A stretch of 64,000 nt of DNA from an uncultured Kiritimatiellota bacterium (lineage in GTDB: Bacteria > Verrucomicrobiota > Kiritimatiellia > RFP12 > DVOR01). The stretch spans positions 1 to 64,000 of the forward strand of contig CALXMW010000006.1 in assembly GCA_944389585.1 (NCBI GenBank), given 5' to 3'. Both the position numbers and the translations under genes were made by a program. The notes beneath the pieces are model-generated. The model saw only the letters and a list, made by a program, of their open reading frames with translations, was not told where the DNA came from and made no database searches. Below, piece by piece: positions 17,289-42,537 of this stretch. The stretch's first letter is position 1, and each line of letters begins with the position of its first letter.

Positions 17289-20200
17289 ATGAAGGAACTA
17301 CTTTCCCTCTTGGCACTTATGCTCTCCGGCACCGCCTTGGCGCAAGGGCCGGACGACCTCATCGCTCAATTGCCGGGCTTCCCCAAGCACTGGAACCAGG
17401 CACATCTCTACAACCAGGTTGTCCGCGACGAGTACGGCAACGGCGCCCCTGCCGGGTGCGTGGCCGTCGCGGGCGCGGCCTGCATGGAGTGGTTCCGCCA
17501 TCCCGCCGCCTTCGGCGAGCGGGCGTATGTCTCCGACAAGCGCGAACTGCGGACGGAGGCCCTCGATTGGGCGCGGCTGTCTCCCGAGCCGCTTGACGCG
17601 CGTGGGCGCCGCACGGCCCAGACGATCCTTTACAATCTCGGGTTGCTCACCCAGATCCATTACGAGGAAGGCGGCTCCTCCACCACGCCGCTCGTCAACC
17701 TCGCCGCCGCGCTGAAGGCCCCGCAGACAGGCTACGCCAGCGCCTACTACGTGGAGCTCGGCGAGGGCACGACGGACGCGGACGTGGCGGCCGCCGTCTG
17801 GGCCTCGCTCCGATGCGGCTCGCCCGTGGCGATGAGCATCGAGCGCGACGGCGGCGGCCACGCCGTCGTCGCCACCGGGTGCGGCACCGCCGCAAGCGGC
17901 GCCCCGCTCACGCAGGTCTTCGGCGGCTACGGCGCCGCCCCCACGTGGATGGACGTGCCCACCGAGATGCCCATCCCCGGCGGCTACACCTACAAACGGC
18001 TCGCCTCCGTGGTCACCGGCATCGTGCCTGACGCGCCCGAGGGCATCACCTCCGGCGCGGCCCTCCCCGTGCTCGGCACCGTCGTGGACGCGGCGGGGAG
18101 CCCCGTCCCCTTCGCCACCGTCACCCTCTCCATCAACGGCCAGGAGGTCGCCAAGACCGCCACCGACCTCCAGGGCCGTTACGGCCTCTGGGGATGGTTT
18201 GGCACTCCCATGACCGTCTCCTGCGACAGCGTCTCCGCCGAACTCCCCGCCCAACAGCACTCCGGCACCAGCAGCGACGCCGTCCCCGGGCTCCCCGCAC
18301 TCCGTGTCCCAATCGCCGCCTTGCGCAAGGCCATCGGCAACTGCCAACGGCAACTTGAACTTCCCACCACCCTCCCCACCCCGACCATCCACACCGACTT
18401 CGAGGCCGCCAAGGCCGCCGCCGCAGAGGCCGGCAACAACATCCTCTGCCTCCACAGCGACAACCCGGATCTCAAGGCCTTCTTCCTCAAACAGGCGGGC
18501 ACCTACACGCTTTTCTTCGCCGACCCGCGCTTGAGCGTGCCGTTCGAGGCTGCCTCCGAACACCCAGATGCCACGTTCTTCGCATTCGACACAGACGGCA
18601 CGCTCATCGGGCTCATCGCCGCTTCCTCCGTCACCTACGATCTTCGCGTCTTTCCCGAAAAACCGGACTTTCCCCCCACTGACCTCATCAAAGGCGGCCA
18701 GGCCGACCTCAACGCCTCCGCCACAGGGATAAACAAAACAATCCAGAACAAGGCGGCTACCGTAGACATCCTCGAAAACGTCCGCCTGGACACGCTTACC
18801 GTCGGCGTGCCCCTCACGCTCACGGGGGATTACAACTGCACGTGGGCGACGCTCGTCCAAAACGCCCCCATCACGCTTGACGGGCCGAACCTCCGTTACG
18901 TGCCGCCAAAGGTCGGGGACGGCTCCGGCTCCGCCTTCCCGCGCGACTTCACCGTCCGGGGCGGCGCGGAGCTCCACTTCGCCAACGGTGACGTCTCGGG
19001 CTATGGGCTCACCTCCGGCACCCTCACCATCGGGCCCGACGGGGTCTTGTGCGCGGCCAAGCGCGACACGCTCCGGCGGCCGCTCGTCCTCGCCGGCGGC
19101 ACCGTCCAGCTCGGCGACAAGGACGGGGACTTCGGCTCGCTCGACCTCTTCTCCACGCCCGTCTCCGTGACGGCGGCTTCCACCGTCGAGGCCCTCTCCG
19201 GCGCGGTCAACCCCCGGCTCACGGTGCGCCAAGCGGGGGACGCCGGCCCCGTGACCCTCTCCTTTAAGAACGACGCGCGCCTCGACATCCGCGTCCCCCT
19301 CACCGCCGCCGAAAGCGGCACCCTCCGCCTCACGGGCTCGGGCACGGCGGCCTTCCACGACGCCGTCGGCGCCCCCACCGCCGTCGACGCCGGCGTGCGC
19401 CTGGAGGGCGGCACCTTCACCGGCACGCTCACCCTCCTCTCCGGCGCGCGGCTCACCACCGACGCGCCCATCGCCGTCTCTGGAACCTTCTCCGCCAGCG
19501 GCGAGATCGTCATCGAGGGCGAGCGCTCCGGCCTCCTTGTGAAGGGCCTCACCGCGCTCCCCGAGGACGCGACCTTCACGGCCCCGGAAGGCTTCCGGGC
19601 GGAACTCGCCGCGGACGGCCTGCGCCTCGTGGCCACCCACGCCACCGCCCCCGCCCTCTACGTGGGCGGCGCGCCCGCCGAGGCGCTCCCCGACACGCCA
19701 GACGGCAATCTGCTCGTCCTCACCACCACCGACCGCAAGGAAAGCGGCCTTTGGGAGGCCTACGCCGCCTTCCGCTCCTCCCCCGAAGGCGGCGGCTGGA
19801 ACGTCATGGTCGCCGCCCTCGGCAACCTCGCCGAGGGGCAAACCGCCGCCGACTACATCAACCAGGCCGGATGCAGCCACGTGCTTCTCGGCCTCTCCGC
19901 CGACGAGCTCCCGCCCCTCGACGGCACCGCCGACCGCCTCACGGGCTTCCACGTCGGCCGCCTCCCCCTCCGCGAGATCCTCCAAATGGGCACGATTGTG
20001 GACGTGGGAAATCTCGGGACTGGCGCCAAGCAAAGTTATGCGGAGCGCTCCGACGCCGAACTGATTGACGCCTATGTCGCCAAACTTGCCAGGGCCGGCG
20101 ACGCTTTCGCCGGCGGAAAACTCTCCCTGCTCGGCGGCGGCTACGGCGTCCCAGACCAATACAGCAACGACACAGACTTCTCGCAGTGGGACGGGTTGCC

Positions 20201-21317
20201 CTCCATCGAAGACACGAAAGCGTGGGCAAAGCCAACCTCGCGCGGGCTCACCGTCTATGCCCTGCGCGACCGCTACCGCCTCTTCAAGGGTCTCGACCCC
20301 GCCGCTTTCCCCGAGCTGACGCTCTACGACGACGTGACAATCCCGCTCGGCACCGCGCCGAACGGGCTCGCTTATGGGCGCGGCCTCGTCGGCGAGACCG
20401 ACGGCGCCCTGCTCTGGGCCGAAGACCAAGGCCGCCGCGACCGCCTCGGCACCATCCTGGTGGGCGGCGAGAAGAACGGCACCATCACCGCCGAGGCCAT
20501 CACCGGCCTCTACAGCCTGGTGATTTCTCCCTCTGGCCTCAGCGGCGAGCTGTCGCGCGGCGAGGCGGGGCCGTGCGTGGGCGAGATGTTGGTGCTGAAC
20601 CCGCAGGGCGGGGCGTTGGCGGCCATTTTGCCCACGGAAAGCTACACGCCCACGATTGACGGGAAGGGCATCCCAAGCGGCACGCTCCATGCCGCCTGCG
20701 GCGCGGTCGCGGAGGCCCTCGTCGAAGACCCGTCCCTGACGGTGGGCGAGGCCTTCTCCCAGGCCGCGGGCGACACGTCGCTGACGCTCCTGGGCGACCC
20801 GACGGTGCGCATCGCGCCCTTTGCCGAGGCCGAAGGGCCGGAGCTGACCTTCCCGGAAGCGGAAGCGGGCGCAGCGCCGGCGCTTTCGGCGGAGGCGGAG
20901 GCGACCCTCCGCGCGGCGGCGGTGAAGGCGGGGCTGACGGGCGCCGTCGAGGTGGTGGCGCGGACGCTTTCGGGCGCGGCGCGGCCGACGGCGGAGTTGG
21001 GTGACGCGCTGGCGTGCTTCGTGGGGTTGGAGCCGGTCGTGGAGGAAGGCCGCTTGGTGGTGGCCTACGACTTCGCGATTGCCGGCGTCCAATGGGAGGG
21101 GGGCATGGTGGCGGTGAGGATGGCCGTGCGCGGCAGGGAGGGGCAAGCGGTCGCCTTTGCCGAGGGCAACGTTTACGCCATCGTGCCGGAGGGGGGCGCG
21201 CACGGCGCGGTTGAGGCCGGGGCCGGGAAGGCCGCCGACGGTTCGGCGACGGTGCGCTTTTCGCCGCCGGAGGCGGAGACCTTCCTCTTCCGCGTCTCGG
21301 TCTCGCGCGGGGAGTGA
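17289..21317 (+). CDS. large exported C10-like cysteine peptidase, multidomain
   Basis: A 1342-aa protein with a Sec signal (MKELLSLLALMLSGTALA). Residues about 30-245 resemble C10 (streptopain-type) peptidases: HWNQAHLYNQ, Cys57 in AGCVAVAGAACMEW and His191 in GGGHAVVATGCG, at family-like spacing. Next comes a carboxypeptidase-regulatory-like beta domain (GTVVDAAGSPVPFATVTLSI), a thioredoxin-like stretch near 380-450, and beta-helix-like repeats. Residues about 790-1180 recall gingipain (C25) folds (GFHVGRLPLREI, LLGDPTVRIAPF), but no clear second catalytic pair is seen. The last ~150 residues match the end of the 2470-aa protein at 31594. It is likely surface-attached or secreted. Activity is inferred only. 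Confidence 0.6.
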   Translation: MKELLSLLALMLSGTALAQGPDDLIAQLPGFPKHWNQAHLYNQVVRDEYGNGAPAGCVAVAGAACMEWFRHPAAFGERAYVSDKRELRTEALDWARLSPEPLDARGRRTAQTILYNLGLLTQIHYEEGGSSTTPLVNLAAALKAPQTGYASAYYVELGEGTTDADVAAAVWASLRCGSPVAMSIERDGGGHAVVATGCGTAASGAPLTQVFGGYGAAPTWMDVPTEMPIPGGYTYKRLASVVTGIVPDAPEGITSGAALPVLGTVVDAAGSPVPFATVTLSINGQEVAKTATDLQGRYGLWGWFGTPMTVSCDSVSAELPAQQHSGTSSDAVPGLPALRVPIAALRKAIGNCQRQLELPTTLPTPTIHTDFEAAKAAAAEAGNNILCLHSDNPDLKAFFLKQAGTYTLFFADPRLSVPFEAASEHPDATFFAFDTDGTLIGLIAASSVTYDLRVFPEKPDFPPTDLIKGGQADLNASATGINKTIQNKAATVDILENVRLDTLTVGVPLTLTGDYNCTWATLVQNAPITLDGPNLRYVPPKVGDGSGSAFPRDFTVRGGAELHFANGDVSGYGLTSGTLTIGPDGVLCAAKRDTLRRPLVLAGGTVQLGDKDGDFGSLDLFSTPVSVTAASTVEALSGAVNPRLTVRQAGDAGPVTLSFKNDARLDIRVPLTAAESGTLRLTGSGTAAFHDAVGAPTAVDAGVRLEGGTFTGTLTLLSGARLTTDAPIAVSGTFSASGEIVIEGERSGLLVKGLTALPEDATFTAPEGFRAELAADGLRLVATHATAPALYVGGAPAEALPDTPDGNLLVLTTTDRKESGLWEAYAAFRSSPEGGGWNVMVAALGNLAEGQTAADYINQAGCSHVLLGLSADELPPLDGTADRLTGFHVGRLPLREILQMGTIVDVGNLGTGAKQSYAERSDAELIDAYVAKLARAGDAFAGGKLSLLGGGYGVPDQYSNDTDFSQWDGLPSIEDTKAWAKPTSRGLTVYALRDRYRLFKGLDPAAFPELTLYDDVTIPLGTAPNGLAYGRGLVGETDGALLWAEDQGRRDRLGTILVGGEKNGTITAEAITGLYSLVISPSGLSGELSRGEAGPCVGEMLVLNPQGGALAAILPTESYTPTIDGKGIPSGTLHAACGAVAEALVEDPSLTVGEAFSQAAGDTSLTLLGDPTVRIAPFAEAEGPELTFPEAEAGAAPALSAEAEATLRAAAVKAGLTGAVEVVARTLSGAARPTAELGDALACFVGLEPVVEEGRLVVAYDFAIAGVQWEGGMVAVRMAVRGREGQAVAFAEGNVYAIVPEGGAHGAVEAGAGKAADGSATVRFSPPEAETFLFRVSVSRGE

Positions 21318-31593: not shown

Positions 31594-34500
31594 ATGAAGC
31601 GGTTTGTCTTTTGGATTTGGGCGCTGTGTGCGGCGGCGCCGGGGTTTGCCGATCAGGTAACCATTGATGGGGTCACGTGGACGTACAGCGTCCGCTCCAG
31701 GGAAGGGGCGTCGTATGCGGTGATTGAGGAGGCCAGCGGGGTACGGGGCGCGGTGACCGTGCCGGCAACGCTGGGCGGGGCGCCGGTCACTGAGCTTGAA
31801 ACCGGATTTCTCGGTATGAGCGGCGTCTTCTACGGATGCACCGAACTGACGGAGGTCCGCTGGGAGGAGGGGTGCGCGATCGAGAAGATCGGGGGGTATG
31901 CTTTCAGGGGGTGCACAAGCCTGACCGAGATCACGATCCCGCCTTCGGTGACGAAACTGGGAAACCAGGCCTTCAGAGGGTCGGGGCTGGAGACCGTCAC
32001 GATTCCGGGCACGGTGAAGACGCTGGGCGCAGAGGTCTTCGCGAAGTGCCCCGACCTGAAGACGGCTGTCTTTGAGGAGGGCGATGAGCTCTATGACGCG
32101 GATGTCGGAGACGGCCTGTTCGTCGCGTGTCCGGAATTGGAGACGGTGACGCTGAAACGGCTGCAGACGCTGAGCGATTCGTTTTTTCTCGACTGTCCGA
32201 AGCTGACGTCGGTGTCGCTGCCGACGACGCTGTGGGAGATCAAGGACGGGGCCTTCGGCCTCAGTCCGAACATTGCCTTCACGCTCGATGCCGGAGTGAC
32301 GAGATTCTCTGTCGAAAACGGATTGTTGCGCTCCGCGACGGGACTCTGTTATGTGCCGGGGAACCCCGAACGACTGGAAATCCCGGATGGGATTACCGAT
32401 ATTTCCGGCGGCATCTGCCGGGGAATGACGAACCTGCGCGAGGTGACCGTGCCCGACACGCTGAAATCCATCGGCACGTTTGCTTTCTACGGGTGTGCGT
32501 CGCTGGAGGAGGTCGATCTTTCGGGAACGCAGGTGACGATGTTGCCGGAGGGTGCCTTTGCGAATTGCCCCGCGCTGGCGTGGGTGCGCCTGCCGGCGAC
32601 GTTCGGGAGTTTCATGATGGATTCGACCTTCGCGTATTCCCCGAACGTGCGGTTTGAGGTGGCGGAAGCGTGCAAGAGTTTTTCCTCGGATGCGTTGGGC
32701 ACACTCTACGACAAGGACAAGACGGTGCTCTTCATCGGGCCCAATGTGGCAAGCTTTACGGTGCCCGAGACGGTGACGGCCATTGCACCTTATGCCTTCG
32801 ATGGACATACGGCGTTGACGTCCATCACCCTTCCGGCGAGCGTCAGAGACTTCGGGTATGATGTCTTCCGTGGGTGCACGAATCTGACGCCGGTGAACGG
32901 GCTCGTGCTTGATGCGGAGCAGACGACCGTGCTCGGGATTGACGCGGGAAAGACCGCGGTCGCCGCGGAAGATTTCCCGGAGACCGTCTGGCGCGTGGCC
33001 GATTACGCCTTTTATGAAAACACGTCTCTGCTCTCCGCCGCCTTCCCGTCGTGGGTAACCTCCATCGGGGCTTTCGCTTTTTACTATTGCGACAATCTGG
33101 GGAGCGTGACCTTCGCCGAGGGACTTGAGGAGATTCGGGACGGGGCCTTTTACAGTACCGGCATCGGCGGGGAACTCAATTTGCCGACCACGCTGACGGA
33201 TCTCGGGGATCTGGCGTTTGGAAATACGAATGTCATGGAGGTGAAGATGGGCGGCACGCCAGGGTTGCGCGATAATCCGAACCTGACCCTCGCGGGGAAC
33301 CCCTTTGCCGAGTGCTATGGCCTGCCTATCGATCCCGCGACGGGTGTCCGGTATGAGACCGCCATTGAGAACAATCCTCGTGTGGTTGTCGGCGTCGGCG
33401 GTGTGGTGGTGGACGACGCCGGCCAAGGGACCGAGGTTGAGGATATCCTGGTGGAGCATCTGGTGCTTCCGGAAAGTGTGCGCTATATCTGCGACGAAGG
33501 ACTCGACCTGTGCCCGGAGTGGAATAAGTTGGCGCTACTGCCGAAGACGATCGAAGTGCCGGGACCGATCTACCGCGTTGGCTCCGGCGCCATTCGGGAT
33601 GGCTACGGCCTGACTTCCATTACCTTTGATGGCGACGTGGGCGAGGTGGATACGAAGGCGTTCACTTGCCTTTCGGCCTTACAGTCGGTGACCTTCAAGG
33701 GTGACGTGGGCGTCGTTCGCGGCAATGTCTTTTGGGAGAGCCTCGGCGACCTAGGGGCTCTGGAAGGGGCGAGCTGTTCGTTGACCTTTGAGGGGAACGT
33801 CGGGACGATTGAGTCGCTTGCCTTCGATGGCAACGTTCTTTATGAGGATTGGGGTTATAACCCCTTGAAGGAGTATCTCACCTCGGTGACCTTCGGAGGG
33901 AGTGTCGGCTCCATTGGGGCGCGAGCCTTCCGCGGGCTCGCGGCCTTGCCGACGGTGACCTTCGGTGGGACGGTTGGGCCGATTGGGGACTGGGCCTTTT
34001 ATGGGTGTTCGTCCTTGCGGACGGTGACGGGCTGCAAGCCCGAGAGCCTCGGGGTCGGTGCCTTTTACGGGTGTTCAGCGCTGACGGGTGCCCCGGACTT
34101 GAGCCGTGTGGCCGAGGTGCCGATCGAGGCCTTCCGGGGGTGCACGGCCCTGACGGAGGTGACGCTGGCCGACGCCGTGACGCTCGGCGAGAACGCCTTT
34201 TACGGGTGTGCCAAGCTGACGGGCCTGAAGACCGCTTCCGGCGGTGATCCAACGGTGACGTTGGCGACTTTTGTCTTCTACGAATGCGCCGCGCTCACCG
34301 GTATCACGCTTGATCCGGCCACGACGGAGATCCCAAACTATGCCTTTTATGGATGCGAGGCCTTGACCGCCCTTGAGTGGCCGGAGACCCTCACGGCCAT
34401 CGGCTCCTCCGCCTTCCGCCTCACCGGCCTTACAGGTGAGCTGAACCTGCCCGCCTCGGTGAAGGAGATCGGCTCCTCCGCCTTCAGCCGCACCGGCCTC

Positions 34501-37500
34501 ACAGGTGAGCTGAATCTGCCCGCCTCGGTGAAGGAGATCGGCTCCTATGCCTTCAGCCACTGTGCCGACCTAACCAAGATTACGCTCAATTCCATCCCTT
34601 CCGGGATGTATGAGGCGTTTGACGGGTGCTCCGGCGTCACGGAGGTCGTCTATACGTGTGATGTGCCGGAGCTTCCGCGGGTGTGGGACGGCCTCACAGG
34701 CCTGACTTCCTTCACGGTGAACGGCGATATCGGCACGTCGGCGAATTATGCGCTCTCGGATTGCGACAGCTTGGAGACGATGACGGTGAAGGGCAATTGG
34801 GGGACCATCGCGGCCGGTACCTTCTACAACCTTGGCAAGTTCACGACGCTGACCGTCACGGGCACCGTCGGCGCCGTCGGCAACTCGGCCTTTATGGGGT
34901 GTACGGCGCTGACTTCGGTGCCAACAATCGGCGATGCGTTCCTTGAGGGAGCCATCGGCAACAATGCCTTCCAAAACTGCTCGAGCCTGGAATCCGTCAC
35001 GCTCGACCGCAACATCCGCGCCATCGGCAACTACGCCTTCCGTGACTGCACCAGTCTTAAGACCGTCTCGATCTTGGGCGATCTCCGCACGATTGGCACC
35101 TATGCCTTTTCGGGGTGCACGGCGCTGAACAATCTGACGCTGCCGACCTCGCTGGTCTCCATCGGCGACTACGCCTTCCAGAACTGCAACGCCTTCCCCA
35201 AAGATGAGAACTTTGTCTATTCCTCGGAGGCAAAAACGGCCATCTTGGATCGGGTCTCGACATCGGCGACGCTAGCTATCCCCGAGGGCGTCACCATGAT
35301 CGGCCCCAGCGCGTTCGCCTCGGAATACAATCTGACGTCGCTGACGTTGCCTTCGACCCTGAAGACCATCGCCAACAAGGCCTTCTATAATTGCAACAAG
35401 CTTACGGAGGTCACCATCCCGGCCGGTGTCGTGACCATCGGCGACTATGCCTTCCAGAGCTGTTCCAAGCTTGCGACGGTGACCTTTGAGCCGAAGAGCC
35501 GGCTGGCAACGATGGGCAAGGGAGCCTTCTACGGCTGCAGTGCGCTGACGGGCTTCGCCTTCCAGCCCGGGGTGACGGCCATCGCCGACAACCTCTTGGG
35601 CGGATGCGGCAAGCTGGCGACGGTGACCTTTGAGCCGGGCTTTGCGCCGGAGTCGATCGGGGCAAACGCCTTCAGCGGTTGCACGACGCTCTCCGCGCTG
35701 ACCATCCCCGAAAGCGTGACCGTCATCGGCGACTATGCCTTCCAGAACTGCGACGATTTGACGGAGATGGCCATCCCGGAATTGGTCACGGCCATCCCGG
35801 ACAACTGCTTCAACAACTGTGACGGCCTCACCGCCGTGACCTTCGGGGAGCAGGTCACGTCCATCGGAGCCTCCGCCTTCTATGGATGCACCAAGCTGAC
35901 CACGCTGCCGGCGGCGGATGCCGATGGCATCGTCATCCCGGAGACGGTGACCACCCTCGGCGAAAAGGCCTTTTATAATTGCAAGGCCGTGACGAAGGTT
36001 ACCTTGCCGGATGTCATCACCGAGATTCCCGAGTCGCTCTTCTATAGGTGTGCCGCGCTGAACACGGTCAAGCTGGGTTCGGCCGTGACGAAGATCGGCA
36101 CGAACGCCTTCAGCGGTTGCACGGCGCTGGAAAGCATTAACCTGCCCGACACGCTGACCACCTTGGGATCGTCGGCTTTCAGCGACAGCGGACTGACCTC
36201 CGTGACCCTGCCGGACGGACTGACGAAGCTGTCCTATTACGGGTTCTCCGGGTGCAAACGGCTCACCTCGGTGACGCTGAGCCCGGACACCGTCGCCCTC
36301 GACACGGGGACCTTTTACGGGTGTACGGCTCTCACGGCCATCACCCTGCCCGCGGGGGTCACGGAGATCCCTCAGGCCGCCTTCATGAACTGCACCGCGC
36401 TGGAGACCGTCACGCTGGAGGGGGTGCTGACCAAGATCGGCTATCAGGCTTTCAGCGGTTGCCCATCGCTCCGCTTCGCGATTCCAGAGACGGTCGTCTC
36501 CATCGGCGGACAGGCCTTCAAAGGGTGCGCGGCCCTTACGGAGATCAGCATCCCGGAGGGCGTCACGGAGCTGGCGGCGAATGTCTTCCAAGATTGCGAC
36601 GGCCTGACGGAAGTCACCATCCCGGCCACCGTCGGGAAGTTCAACGCGAGCGCCTTCGCGGGGTGCGACAACCTCACAACGGTGACGCTCGGCGGATCGC
36701 CCACCGCTGTGTCGGATTCGATGTTCGACGGCTGCACGGCGCTGACTGCCATTCATCTGCCGGACACCGTCACCTCCATCGGCGCCTCCGCCTTCCGGAA
36801 CTGCACGGCGCTCACCTCCATCGATATTCCCCCCCGCGTGACCAAGATCGGGACCTACGCCTTCCAAAAGTCCGGCCTGACCTCCGTCGTCGTGCCCGAC
36901 ACGGTGACCTCACTGGGGACTTATACCTTCCAGGGCTGCGCGGCGCTGACCTCGGCCACCGTCGGCGAGGGCGTCGCCACGATCGGCAACTACACCTTCG
37001 GCGACTGCACGGCGCTCACGAAGGTGACGCTGCCGGCCGACCTGAAGGAGATCGGAAGATCCGCCTTCTACGGATGCACGGCGCTCACGGCCATTGACAT
37101 TCCCTCCGGCGTGACCAAGGTCGGGAGCAACGCGTTTGAAAAGTCCGGTCTGATCGCCGCCGTCCTGCCCGACACCGTGACCTCGCTGGGAACCTATGCC
37201 TTCCAGAACAGCACGTCGCTGACTTCGGTGGATGTCGGCGCGAGGCTTACGAAGCTCGACACCCGCACTTTCTACGGATGCACGGCGCTCTCGGAGGTGA
37301 CGCTGCCGGCCGGCCTGAAGGAGATCGGGAGCAGCGCGTTTCAGGACTGCACGGCGCTTGATGCCATCACAATCCCCGAGGACGTAACCAAAATCGGGAG
37401 CAGCGCGTTCCAGGACTGCACGGCGCTCTCGGAAGTGACGCTGCCGGCCGGTCTGGAGGAGATCGGGAGCAGCGCGTTCCAGAACTGCACGGCGCTCTCG

Positions 37501-39006
37501 GCCATCGCAATCCCCGAGGGTGCGACCACCATCGGGAGCAGAGCGTTCCAAAATGCCGGCCTGACGTCCGTCTCGGTGCCCGGGTCGGTGACCTCGCTGG
37601 GGACGTACGTCTTCCAGGATTGCGCGGCGCTCACGTCCGCCGCCTTCGGCGAGGGCATCAACGCGATCCCCAATTACACGTTTGACGGATGCACGGCGCT
37701 CTCGGAGGTGACGCTACCGGCGACGCTGACGGAAATCGGAACCTACGCCTTCCAGAACTGCACATCGCTCACGGCCGCCGGTATACCTTCCAACGTGACC
37801 AAGATCGGAGGCTACGCATTCAAGAATTCCGGCCTGACCTCCGTCTCGGTACCCGGGTCGGTGACCTCAATGGGGACGTATGTCTTCCAGAATTGCACGG
37901 CGCTGACCTCGGCCGCCTTCGGCGAGGGCATCAACGCGATCCCCAATTACACGTTTTACGGATGCACGGCGCTCTCGAAGGTGACGCTGCCGGCGACGCT
38001 GACGGAAATCGGCGCTAACGCCTTCAACGGATGCACGGCGCTCACGGCCGTCACAATCCCCTCCGGCGTGACCAAGATCGGGAATTACGCCTTCCTGAAG
38101 TGCGGCCTGACGTCCGTCTTGGTGCCCGGGTCGGTGACCTCGCTGGGGATGTACGTCTTTCAGAATTGCACGGCGCTGACCTCGGCCACGCTCGGGGAAG
38201 GGATCACGGTCATCCCGAGCAGTACCTTCTCCGGGTGCACGGAGCTGGCGGCCGTCACGTTGCCGGACAGCGTGACCACCGTCAATTCCAACGCCTTCGG
38301 GAACTGCAGGAAACTGGTCTCGCTCACCATCCGGGGCGATGTGCCCACTTCGGTGAACAGCTACGCCTTCCCCACGGGGAATTATCTGGCCGAAGGCGCC
38401 ACGCTTTATTACCCGGCCGCGCAGGAAGCGGCGTGGAAGGCGGCGGCCGACGCGGACGGCAAATGGAAGGGCTTCACACTGGCCGTGCTCGCGGCCGTGG
38501 CCATGCCCAATGTCCCTGAGGGCGCGGCAGGTTACACCGACATGGCCGTGCTCGAGCGCCTTCAGTCCGCCGCCTTGAAGGCCGGCATCACCGACGGCAC
38601 GTTCGACGTCTTCCGCCAGAACAGCGACGGCACCGTGGTTCGGGAACTCCTCGCGCCGACGACCGTGGAGGATGCGCTGAACTGCTTTGCCGGGCTTGAG
38701 CCGGTGGCGGTCACGCTTGAGGACGGGACGGCCATGGTGGTCCTGCCCTATACCTTCGACGTCTGCGGCATCTCCGTCGAGGCGTCGGAGGTCGTCGTCA
38801 CGGTCAAGGTCGAGAGCGGCCTTCCCAAGATGCCCCTGACCTTCGCCGAGGGCATCGCCTATGCCATTGTGCCCACCACGGAGGGCACCGCGCCCGTCGT
38901 CATCGTACGGGAGGAAGTGGCCGGCGACACCGCCACGCTGGCGTTCGCCCCGCCGGAGGGACACTCCACCTACCTCTTCAAGGCGTCGGTTTCGCCTCTT
39001 CGGTAA
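31594..39006 (+). CDS. giant BspA-like leucine-rich repeat surface protein
   Basis: A 2470-aa exported protein (MKRFVFWIWALCAAAPGFADQ). Residues about 35-2310 are BspA/TpLRR-type (LRR_5) repeats of about 23 residues with the pattern IPxxVTxIGxxAFxxCxxLTxV. Parts of the 3' half have a higher-order period of 91 codons. The last ~150 residues form a separate beta-rich domain also found at the end of the protein at 17289. BspA-type proteins mediate adhesion to host proteins or other bacteria. The ATG at 31594 follows GGAGAACGGTC. Expression may be controlled by the leader and the IS-derived promoter upstream. GC content is lower than in neighbouring housekeeping genes. Confidence 0.88.
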   Translation: MKRFVFWIWALCAAAPGFADQVTIDGVTWTYSVRSREGASYAVIEEASGVRGAVTVPATLGGAPVTELETGFLGMSGVFYGCTELTEVRWEEGCAIEKIGGYAFRGCTSLTEITIPPSVTKLGNQAFRGSGLETVTIPGTVKTLGAEVFAKCPDLKTAVFEEGDELYDADVGDGLFVACPELETVTLKRLQTLSDSFFLDCPKLTSVSLPTTLWEIKDGAFGLSPNIAFTLDAGVTRFSVENGLLRSATGLCYVPGNPERLEIPDGITDISGGICRGMTNLREVTVPDTLKSIGTFAFYGCASLEEVDLSGTQVTMLPEGAFANCPALAWVRLPATFGSFMMDSTFAYSPNVRFEVAEACKSFSSDALGTLYDKDKTVLFIGPNVASFTVPETVTAIAPYAFDGHTALTSITLPASVRDFGYDVFRGCTNLTPVNGLVLDAEQTTVLGIDAGKTAVAAEDFPETVWRVADYAFYENTSLLSAAFPSWVTSIGAFAFYYCDNLGSVTFAEGLEEIRDGAFYSTGIGGELNLPTTLTDLGDLAFGNTNVMEVKMGGTPGLRDNPNLTLAGNPFAECYGLPIDPATGVRYETAIENNPRVVVGVGGVVVDDAGQGTEVEDILVEHLVLPESVRYICDEGLDLCPEWNKLALLPKTIEVPGPIYRVGSGAIRDGYGLTSITFDGDVGEVDTKAFTCLSALQSVTFKGDVGVVRGNVFWESLGDLGALEGASCSLTFEGNVGTIESLAFDGNVLYEDWGYNPLKEYLTSVTFGGSVGSIGARAFRGLAALPTVTFGGTVGPIGDWAFYGCSSLRTVTGCKPESLGVGAFYGCSALTGAPDLSRVAEVPIEAFRGCTALTEVTLADAVTLGENAFYGCAKLTGLKTASGGDPTVTLATFVFYECAALTGITLDPATTEIPNYAFYGCEALTALEWPETLTAIGSSAFRLTGLTGELNLPASVKEIGSSAFSRTGLTGELNLPASVKEIGSYAFSHCADLTKITLNSIPSGMYEAFDGCSGVTEVVYTCDVPELPRVWDGLTGLTSFTVNGDIGTSANYALSDCDSLETMTVKGNWGTIAAGTFYNLGKFTTLTVTGTVGAVGNSAFMGCTALTSVPTIGDAFLEGAIGNNAFQNCSSLESVTLDRNIRAIGNYAFRDCTSLKTVSILGDLRTIGTYAFSGCTALNNLTLPTSLVSIGDYAFQNCNAFPKDENFVYSSEAKTAILDRVSTSATLAIPEGVTMIGPSAFASEYNLTSLTLPSTLKTIANKAFYNCNKLTEVTIPAGVVTIGDYAFQSCSKLATVTFEPKSRLATMGKGAFYGCSALTGFAFQPGVTAIADNLLGGCGKLATVTFEPGFAPESIGANAFSGCTTLSALTIPESVTVIGDYAFQNCDDLTEMAIPELVTAIPDNCFNNCDGLTAVTFGEQVTSIGASAFYGCTKLTTLPAADADGIVIPETVTTLGEKAFYNCKAVTKVTLPDVITEIPESLFYRCAALNTVKLGSAVTKIGTNAFSGCTALESINLPDTLTTLGSSAFSDSGLTSVTLPDGLTKLSYYGFSGCKRLTSVTLSPDTVALDTGTFYGCTALTAITLPAGVTEIPQAAFMNCTALETVTLEGVLTKIGYQAFSGCPSLRFAIPETVVSIGGQAFKGCAALTEISIPEGVTELAANVFQDCDGLTEVTIPATVGKFNASAFAGCDNLTTVTLGGSPTAVSDSMFDGCTALTAIHLPDTVTSIGASAFRNCTALTSIDIPPRVTKIGTYAFQKSGLTSVVVPDTVTSLGTYTFQGCAALTSATVGEGVATIGNYTFGDCTALTKVTLPADLKEIGRSAFYGCTALTAIDIPSGVTKVGSNAFEKSGLIAAVLPDTVTSLGTYAFQNSTSLTSVDVGARLTKLDTRTFYGCTALSEVTLPAGLKEIGSSAFQDCTALDAITIPEDVTKIGSSAFQDCTALSEVTLPAGLEEIGSSAFQNCTALSAIAIPEGATTIGSRAFQNAGLTSVSVPGSVTSLGTYVFQDCAALTSAAFGEGINAIPNYTFDGCTALSEVTLPATLTEIGTYAFQNCTSLTAAGIPSNVTKIGGYAFKNSGLTSVSVPGSVTSMGTYVFQNCTALTSAAFGEGINAIPNYTFYGCTALSKVTLPATLTEIGANAFNGCTALTAVTIPSGVTKIGNYAFLKCGLTSVLVPGSVTSLGMYVFQNCTALTSATLGEGITVIPSSTFSGCTELAAVTLPDSVTTVNSNAFGNCRKLVSLTIRGDVPTSVNSYAFPTGNYLAEGATLYYPAAQEAAWKAAADADGKWKGFTLAVLAAVAMPNVPEGAAGYTDMAVLERLQSAALKAGITDGTFDVFRQNSDGTVVRELLAPTTVEDALNCFAGLEPVAVTLEDGTAMVVLPYTFDVCGISVEASEVVVTVKVESGLPKMPLTFAEGIAYAIVPTTEGTAPVVIVREEVAGDTATLAFAPPEGHSTYLFKASVSPLR

Positions 39007-39896: not shown

Positions 39897-40961
39897 TTAG
39901 GAGACCTTTTTGGGGGTATGTGGGTAGTGGACGATGAGGCGATGGGTCTGTTTAAGCGCACGAGGGCTTAGCTTGGAAAAGTTGGTGGATTTGGGGCAGT
40001 AGAGGCGCAGGAGGCGGTACCGGTGGCGTTCAATGGAGCCTTTCTCCCAAGCACTGTAGGGATGGCAGTAGTAGATGGGGACATGAAGGAGGGCTTCAAG
40101 TGTGTCTTCATGGAGAAACTCCGAGCCATTATCGGTGAGAATCGTCTTAAGTTCGTGGCCGTTGGCGTAAAGGTCGCGGCGAAAACAACGAAGTGCGGAG
40201 GTCACGGAGGCTTGAGAAATGGTTGGAAGGGCATACATATAGAAGCGGCGGGGCGCTGTTGGATTGCCATGGTGGGGGTCGACAAGGGTGAGGATGCCAC
40301 CGCGGCCGCCGGAAGAATGGACGGTGTCCATCTGGAAATGTCCGGGCTCGGTGTGATGGCGCGCGGCAGGAGGAAGGTCGTCGATCATGTGCTTGGGGGC
40401 GTGGTTGCGGGGGACATCGGTGGAGGCGGGCTTGTGTTGGTTTTTCTTGTAACGCTTGTGGGTAAGAGGTCTGCCGCGTGCATCCTGAAGTTCGCCTTTG
40501 TCCATCAGGCGATAGACGGTGCTGCGACTGAGGAGATATGCGTTGGGTGATATCTCGTGAAGCACCTTCAATGTGTAGGTGACACTTTTCGTTTTGGAAT
40601 ATACCTTTGCAAAGTCTCGAGCAAAGAAGTTTGAGACCTTGCCGCGGGGCCCTTTGTTGGCGTTGCGTCTTCGGGTCTCTTCCACGGCAAACCCCGGGCT
40701 TAGGTCTAAGTACTCCCACCGCTTTTTGTCGGGAAGATACCACGTCAACCGCTTGGCGGTGGTTCCTTTTTTGAGGATGTATCTCACGGTTGAGGGTTTT
40801 TCCCCGATCATTCGCGCGAACGCTCTGACAGAGGGTCTGGCAACGGATTTCCGATACATGTTCCAATACCTAATGCACGCCTCCACGTCAGCCTTTCCGT
40901 TTTTGCGAATGCACGATTCTTGCGTTCGTTGCCTGCGAGAAGAAGTGATACACTGTTGCAC
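39897..40961 (-). CDS. IS30-family transposase, apparently intact
   Basis: A 354-aa transposase. The N-terminal region has VRAFARMIGEKPSTVRYIL (helix-turn-helix) and SRSTVYRLMDKGE. The DDE catalytic core is visible as FQMDTVHSSGG, ILTDNGSEFLHED and WEKGSIERHRYRLLR, with the expected spacing. I choose the GTG start at 40961 because AAGAAGGAACC lies 6-8 bp upstream; longer upstream readings pass through the GC palindrome and efp leader and lack family similarity. The C-terminus is HRLIVHYPHTPKKVS. It shares only the catalytic motifs with copy 1. Confidence 0.82.
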   Translation of the reverse strand: MQQCITSSRRQRTQESCIRKNGKADVEACIRYWNMYRKSVARPSVRAFARMIGEKPSTVRYILKKGTTAKRLTWYLPDKKRWEYLDLSPGFAVEETRRRNANKGPRGKVSNFFARDFAKVYSKTKSVTYTLKVLHEISPNAYLLSRSTVYRLMDKGELQDARGRPLTHKRYKKNQHKPASTDVPRNHAPKHMIDDLPPAARHHTEPGHFQMDTVHSSGGRGGILTLVDPHHGNPTAPRRFYMYALPTISQASVTSALRCFRRDLYANGHELKTILTDNGSEFLHEDTLEALLHVPIYYCHPYSAWEKGSIERHRYRLLRLYCPKSTNFSKLSPRALKQTHRLIVHYPHTPKKVS

Positions 40962-40984
40962 GCCGTCGGTTCCTTCTTTGTGTG

Positions 40985-41001
40985 TGGCACATAGTGTGCC
41001 A
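40985..41001. promoter_or_regulatory. dyad at the start of the IS30 copy 2 transposase
   Basis: TGGCACATAGTGTGCCA is a perfect 7-bp inverted repeat with a 3-nt centre, lying 25-40 bp before the transposase GTG. It could be an operator for autoregulation or a translation-blocking hairpin. Confidence 0.4.
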
Positions 41002-41137
41002 AGAAAGGCCGACGGCGTTTTTGCTTTTGGGCCGCGCCGCCCCCCGGGGGGGCGGGTTGCGGGGAGCCTTCTTTGCCTTATTGGATGCGTCATTACATTT
41101 TGCATCGATCGCATCCAAAGGAAACCCAAGCGCCGAT

Positions 41138-41167
41138 TTGACGGCCAAGGGGAGGATGCGCTATAGC
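41138..41167 (+). promoter_or_regulatory. possible efp promoter spanning the IS30 copy 2 end
   Basis: TTGACG (41138-41143), at the inferred IS right end, an 18-bp spacer, and TATAGC (41162-41167). The geometry repeats that seen at the right end of IS30 copy 1. The -10 is weak. Confidence 0.35.
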
Positions 41168-41204
41168 AATGTGGTTTACGACGCATAGACAAGGATAGAA
41201 TCCC

Positions 41205-41769
41205 ATGTATACCGCGCTCCGACCTCAAAAAAGGCCTCAAGATCATGTTCGAGGGCCAGCCCTGGATCATCACGGACTTTGATTTCTCCAAGCCCGGCAA
41301 GGGCCAGGCCATCTACAACTGCAAGCTGCGCAATATGCTCAACGGCTCGGGCAAGTCTTGCTCGTTCCGCTCGAACGATTGCTTTGAGAAGCCCGACTTG
41401 GCCCAGAAGCCCCTCGTCTATTCCTACGAGGACGCCGGCGAGTATGTCTTCAACGACGAGGATTACAACGAAATCCGCGTGGGTAAGGACGTCTTGGGCG
41501 ACAAGACCTACTTCTTGACCGATGGGCTGGAAGTCGACGCCCTCCTCTACGAGGACGAGGTGATCGACATCGAGCTGCCCTCCTTCATCGAGCGCAAGGT
41601 CATCAAGTGCGACCCCGGCGTGCGCGGCAACACCGCGGCCGGCAAGGTCACCAAGCCAGGTACCGTCGAGGGTGGCTATCAGTTGCCCGTGCCGCTCTTC
41701 ATCAACGAGGGCGACCTCATCCGCATCGACACCCGTACCGGTGAATACGCCGACCGCGTGGAAGCCTAA
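41205..41769 (+). pseudogene. efp: elongation factor P with a one-base frameshift at codon 5
   Basis: EF-P relieves ribosome stalling at polyproline. The expected start, ATG TAT ACC GCG at 41205 with AAGGA upstream, encodes MYTA; then one extra C at about 41217 shifts the frame. From 41218 the normal frame continues as SDLKKGLKIMFEGQPW, then SKPGKGQAIYNCKLRN with the conserved modifiable Lys region, and the two OB domains to EYADRVEA. Without correction only an internal start at 41245 (MFEGQ) remains, removing the first 13 residues of domain I. This is either a real mutation beside the IS or a sequence error. Otherwise the length (about 187 aa) is normal. Confidence 0.75.
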
Positions 41770-41787
41770 GCGCCAAGGAGCCCGCAC

Positions 41788-42279
41788 ATGGCCAAGAAAG
41801 AGCTTCCCACCCTCAAGGACGTCTCGCGCATCCCCGAAGAGTTGCGCCCCGTCGTCAATTGGTGGCAGGATCACGGCACCAAGGCGCTCACGTGGGCCAT
41901 CGTCGCGGTGGCCGCGTGCGTGGCGGCCTATCTCTGGCACTCCGACAACCGAGCCGACGACGCCCAAGCGGAGATCGCATTGGCCAGTGAGCGCGAAGTA
42001 GACCTGCAGCCCATCATCGACGAGGGCCCGGCCGCGAAACCCCTCCTCCAGCTGGTCCAGGCGCGCAGCCTCTATGATGCGGGCGACTATGAGGGCGCGT
42101 TGGCCGTCTACGGGGAAGCCCGCGAGGCATTGGCCGACGACCCGGACCTCAAGGTTGTCCCCGAGGTGGGCCGCATCTGTGCGCTCACGGGGCTCGGCCG
42201 CTTGGACGAGGCCCTCTCTGCGGCCAATGCGATTGAGGCCGCCCTCGTCGAGACGCTTCTCGCACGTTGGCGCCATTGA
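41788..42279 (+). CDS. membrane-anchored TPR protein (YfgM-like), possibly truncated
   Basis: A 163-aa protein. Residues 1-30 are cytoplasmic, a single membrane segment follows (TWAIVAVAACVAAYLW, about residues 35-50), then TPR-like helices (QLVQARSLYDAGDYEGALAVYGEA, GRICALTGLGRLDEALSAANAI). The layout resembles YfgM-type anchors. The sequence ends abruptly in ETLLARWRH, shorter than usual, and the next 250 bp hold no continuation that I can recognise. AAGGAG lies 9 bp before the ATG. It follows efp by 18 bp and is likely co-transcribed. Confidence 0.6.
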   Translation: MAKKELPTLKDVSRIPEELRPVVNWWQDHGTKALTWAIVAVAACVAAYLWHSDNRADDAQAEIALASEREVDLQPIIDEGPAAKPLLQLVQARSLYDAGDYEGALAVYGEAREALADDPDLKVVPEVGRICALTGLGRLDEALSAANAIEAALVETLLARWRH

Positions 42280-42537
42280 ACGCCCCAATGCAGAAGATGG
42301 CAGGGAAAGGCCTTTCGAGAGAGAAATAGGGCAAACGCCCAACAAGGCTTTGTGGCCAGAGGGAACCAAGGCCCTCTCAAAACACACCCGCGCTTATTCC
42401 ACAGCCCGAAGGGCGCCAGTTCCCTGACTTACAAACACTCTTGAAGGGATTGAAAGACGGGGACACCATCTAAGGATTGAGCCGAGAAAGCAGGGCGCAA
42501 CGTAAATACTGCACGGCGTCCAAGCGCACGGCGGGGG

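Follow-up and report, generated by a model that had tools for sequence, protein, structure and literature searches.

A candidate envelope-sorting domain at the C-terminus of unrelated exported proteins in an order of Kiritimatiellota-type bacteria

Why should two giant exported proteins that otherwise differ end in the same domain? The question is raised by the window analyzed here, a stretch of 64,000 nucleotides from a gut bacterium whose own genome amounts to 1.95 Mb in 26 contigs. Both proteins are encoded on the plus strand. Carrier A (1342 aa, positions 17289-21317) begins with a signal peptide recognized from its sequence (MKELLSLLALMLSGTALA followed by Q, 17289-17342) and combines Peptidase_C10, CarboxypepD_reg and a partial Peptidase_C25 match with the C-terminal module at 20847-21314 (whole-profile match, E 1.4e-42). 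The Ig-like half of the module, which is its most widely shared part in the order, lies at 21054-21314 and ends in the terminal beta strand FLFRVSVS (21282-21305), the stop codon being found 3 residues further on. Carrier B (2470 aa, 31594-39006) is an exported protein consisting of a string of BspA-type LRRs (LRR_5 repeats), again with a signal peptide assigned from sequence (MKRFVFWIWALCAAAPGFA followed by D, 31594-31650). Its module occupies 38506-39003 (profile match 38506-39000, E 8.7e-43), with the Ig-like half at 38737-39003 and the terminal beta strand YLFKASVS at 38971-38994, likewise 3 residues before the stop codon.

According to the initial annotation, the tails of these two proteins align while the rest of them differs, and both parts of this claim were borne out. 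The last ~160 residues share 39% identity (BLASTP E 4e-15), and the local alignment score of 192 vs 36 ± 6 for 1000 shuffles (maximum 66) places the similarity 26 SD above chance alignments; every matching segment that had been quoted is present in the sequences. Outside the tails, no further significant alignment between the carriers was found, and the Peptidase_C10, CarboxypepD_reg and partial C25 matches of one stand against the LRR_5 repeats of the other. The start proposed for the first tail, 20830, was approximate, as the nearest in-frame start is 20832 and the profile match covers 20847-21314. The partial C25 (gingipain-family) match of carrier A, at 20505-20810 of the window, ends with LLGDPTVRI shortly before the module, and this protein seems, from its sequence, to combine C10 and C25-like domains in one chain; the C25-like stretch produced no match at E <= 0.01 when compared with PDB. 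Just downstream of carrier B, on the minus strand (39897-42387), there are ORFs which by eye resemble an integrase-type transposase.

The earlier observation was correct but understated, since the module is far more widespread than the two window proteins. The genome searches were six-frame and blind to position in the protein. A single tail as the query gave 5 matches in the own genome of the bacterium, the pair gave 7, and a 41-row profile gave 10 at E <= 0.001. The module is carried, in 1-14 copies, by every one of the 17 genus genomes (six-frame profile search), the family being represented in our sample by this genus alone, and the relatives bearing it include Candidatus Spyradenecus faecavium and uncultured Kiritimatiellaeota MAGs. 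The first profile matched 14 of 388 genomes sampled from the phylum, all within the same order, and with a profile of the Ig-like half the matches extended to further families of that order. When tails from these other families were aligned (A7), the resulting variant proved to be homologous to the form found in the genus (hhalign probability 94, E 1.2e-7, 108 columns). When A7 was used in the search, 61 of 346 genomes of the class were matched, each from the same order, with 0 matches outside the order among the class genomes searched. The 17 genus genomes and the 59 non-genus genomes from the A7 search add up to at least 76 out of 162 examined members of the order, and the module is not limited to two genes. 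For about half of the order's genomes there was no match at the thresholds used, and the sequence of the module is highly divergent (28% mean column identity). A close copy of the carrier B tail was also seen at the edge of a contig from a genome assigned to another family (L118, G141:C5:37808-38215), which may reflect lateral transfer or a binning error.

Position in the protein proved to be invariant among the ORFs re-scored. When 88 carriers were translated and re-scored with both profiles, 87 matched, and the module was C-terminal in all 87 and internal in none of them. The stop codon lies no more than 10 residues from the end of the model in 77 of these ORFs (unaligned model positions being allowed for). 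The remaining 10 represent a divergent subtype whose loops are longer, and they extend 58-110 residues beyond the last aligned position; these trailing residues are the rest of the module, and no further domain was seen there. There is a single copy per protein, except for one protein with an additional marginal match (E 0.004). At further loci, from other families, FFKAKIE or close variants of it stand at the stop codon, the exceptions being frameshifted, located at a contig end or unparsed.

The passengers to which this tail is attached are diverse. Besides C10 proteases and LRR proteins, they comprise double GDSL hydrolases, metallophosphoesterase plus caspase-like proteins, transglutaminase, F5/8C and GxDLY-GDSL esterases, and most of them are without a Pfam match. 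Under a strict, ATG-only rule, a signal peptide was recognized in 33 of 49 N-terminally complete carrier ORFs; for comparison, 12 of 88 six-frame ORFs of the window (>=300 codons), many of which are not genes, pass the same rule. At least 4 more carriers (L013, L015, L067 and L083) have a signal peptide in an adjacent frame, and L050 and L052 are disrupted copies of a protein possessing a signal peptide. Frameshifts account for some, not all, of the roughly one third of N-terminally complete ORFs that fail the rule. Thus, the possibility that the hosts of the module are cytoplasmic proteins found little support.

Carriers broken or altered by frameshifts include L050, L052, L012 and L015 (G000:C4), the last of which shows a 712-aa ORF with a signal peptide running into a module-bearing ORF in another frame. 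Immediately after the signal peptide (A-Q-x-x-T-GGG), a tract of 8-10 G residues (Gly-Gly-Gly codons) was observed in seven module-bearing giants: L013 (position 7009, own genome C2), L053 (4889), L058 (6920), L059 (4886), L062 (1018), L067 (349) and L083 (648). In L013, L067 and L083 the tract is one G over the in-frame length and the gene is out of frame, while the other four are in frame. Runs of G or C of at least 8 nucleotides are rare in the window (1 vs 18 in shuffles). These tracts look like phase-variable on/off switches of surface proteins, with homopolymer assembly error as a caveat.

Modeling gives a consistent picture of the module. The AlphaFold2 model of the carrier A tail, based on an 11-row alignment (pLDDT 87.4, pTM 0.79), contains a helix (20-32), a strand (38-44), a second helix (53-62) and then seven strands, the last at 153-159 of 161 residues; the order of elements in the model of the carrier B tail is identical (pLDDT 80.8). 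The module is thus predicted to consist of a helix-strand-helix lead (~75 aa) and an Ig-like beta sandwich (~85 residues), ~160 aa overall. Structure comparison from residue ~76 onward returned generic Ig-like folds for both tails, with a best VIA Z of 7.2 (78 residues) for A and 7.6 for B, so that in the models the fold class appears clear and a specific relative does not. There was no T9SS CTD among the structure matches listed, which says nothing either way. The module has no transmembrane segment.

The last strand follows the pattern F-[KR]-[VA]-[KR]-[VI]. At its alternate positions K or R occurs in 77% and 59% of the genus-led set, vs a background of 7.4%, and in 82% and 65% of a second subfamily, vs 8.4%; these percentages come from related sequences and are not independent samples. 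Because every second residue of a strand points in the same direction, the K/R residues would form a basic stripe located a few positions before the free C-terminus, on a domain that is acidic elsewhere.

Was such a domain described before? Pfam and NCBIfam scans of 58 tails (41 + 17) revealed, among the families listed, none covering the module and only scattered weak matches (Invasin_D3, CoaZ_rpt_PGGG and others), none of them consistent across members, and PDB sequence searches with the tails gave no convincing match. Among the papers searched there was no description of a Kiritimatiellota sorting domain, T9SS or PEP-CTERM. C-terminal sorting domains are known as a kind; for this family, for the lineage in which it occurs and for the machinery that probably serves it, no description was met in the databases and papers searched, which agrees with the suggestion made at the outset that the domain may be undescribed.

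We favor, with moderate confidence, the explanation that the module is a C-terminal envelope-sorting domain found across an order of Kiritimatiellota-type bacteria. The homology of the tails, their terminal position in single copy, the unrelated passengers, the enrichment in signal peptides, the predicted Ig-like fold and the basic last strand all point to this role, and terminal position, exported hosts and wide spread likewise speak for the sorting or anchoring function proposed in the initial annotation. Complete ORFs failing the signal-peptide rule and genomes of the order lacking a match speak against it. What these observations describe is anatomy; from it we infer that recognition, transport and cleavage would proceed as follows. 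The carrier would be exported by Sec into the periplasm, where its tail would fold; an outer-membrane machine might then recognize the Ig domain together with its basic terminal strand and place the passenger on the surface or release it outside, the tail being either cleaved or kept.

The nearest functional parallel would be the C-terminal domain (CTD) of type IX secretion, which may work alike although the module matches none of its families. In type IX secretion the tail is both required and enough for passage through the outer membrane, and PorU often cleaves it off. The type IX CTD is an Ig-like sandwich (PMC4804311), and secretion depends on its last 13 residues, in particular on conserved lysines (PMC10202324). 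Like the type A CTDs (PF18962, TIGR04183), the module is C-terminal on unrelated Sec-exported passengers and combines an Ig-like sandwich, in our case a predicted fold class, with conserved basic residues near the C-terminus (PMC4804311, PMC10202324). The same placement, fold class and basic strand would be expected of a divergent true type IX CTD served by an unrecognized T9SS. This seems very unlikely to us, as the families listed for the 41 + 17 tails at E <= 1 include neither PF18962/TIGR04183 nor PF13585/TIGR04131 (for one set of tails, the 25 of 39 families with most members), and SprA_N was matched in 0 of the 17 genus genomes in a search run without a positive control. Moreover, no HMM similarity was found, and the module differs in being longer (~160 aa, with the helical lead of ~75 aa) and in belonging to a different phylum. 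Since the family HMMs fail to match and SprA_N gave that result, membership is not claimed; the analogy drawn previously stands for fold and placement, not as a demonstrated relationship. The other analogy, to PEP-CTERM, did not stand. An exosortase is encoded in 14 of the 17 genus genomes, including the own genome, alongside genuine PEP-CTERM proteins, and a lineage-wide C-terminal tag on exported proteins is what the PEP-CTERM/exosortase system (PF07589, PF09721) and the module have in common in these same genomes. However, the PEP-CTERM signal comprises ~24 residues with a transmembrane helix and a basic end, whereas the module is a soluble, folded domain that occurs on different and larger proteins. 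Canonical PEP-CTERM ends such as VPEPTALALLALGVAGVALRRR sit on other, small proteins (e.g. G000:C9:16701, C2:8419 and C3:90635 in the own genome; also L140 14573-15322), and the 33 PEP-CTERM matches of the own genome, which has one exosortase, are likely a large separate set of exosortase substrates. Because the tails have neither a PEP motif nor a transmembrane helix and real PEP-CTERM proteins coexist with them, PEP-CTERM identity was rejected, and a processing signal of the exosortase/PEP-CTERM type retains hardly any probability. GlyGly-CTERM (TIGR03501, rhombosortase) came to light in the same way as the module, through C-terminal homology between proteins that are otherwise unrelated (PMC3237569), but the module is without its tripartite motif-TM-basic architecture. 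Two further routes were rejected: autotransport (type V), as the carriers are without a barrel family and the module is a predicted Ig sandwich of ~85 residues, and RTX-type T1SS, as the carriers have N-terminal signal peptides.

A different explanation would place the module after export rather than in it. Secretins were found in all 17 genus genomes, with 4 in the own genome, which makes a secretin-based route possible; the carriers, which are large proteins of surface type, could leave by such general export (e.g. type II), and the Ig-like tail could then bind surface polysaccharide or an outer-membrane protein non-covalently, as Ig-like folds frequently bind ligands. Binding domains, however, usually occur also internally or in tandem, contrary to the 0 of 87 internal modules, and a conserved basic strand at the very end of the chain fits a signal that is recognized at the free end, so that we regard surface retention of this kind as rather unlikely. 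It is less probable still that the tail is a structural cap, aiding folding or stability of large beta-rich passengers without any sorting role. Many passengers do look repetitive or beta-rich (LRRs, traces of beta strand repeats), and the high divergence of the module may reflect a structural domain under weak constraint, which is a counterpoint to sorting as well; but a cap would be expected with one passenger fold, and the module is found also on globular GDSL, C10 and metallophosphoesterase/caspase proteins.

If the module is indeed a sorting domain, one may tentatively suppose that it is the recognition signal of an undescribed outer-membrane machine for export or surface attachment, specific to the order and operating beside exosortase/PEP-CTERM. 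Sorting tags have revealed envelope machinery in the past: PEP-CTERM led to exosortase, and the tail of gingipains turned out to be the type IX secretion signal. An unannotated tail on unrelated exported proteins across a largely uncultured order points similarly to unnamed envelope machinery, and there is a substantial chance that the module marks an undescribed export system, for whose partner the distribution of the module provides a phylogenetic profile. With the tail as a marker, many proteins whose function is unknown can also be classed as surface or secreted proteins. Judged by its anatomy, the module looks like an address label for the cell surface, carried by dozens of exported proteins across the order.
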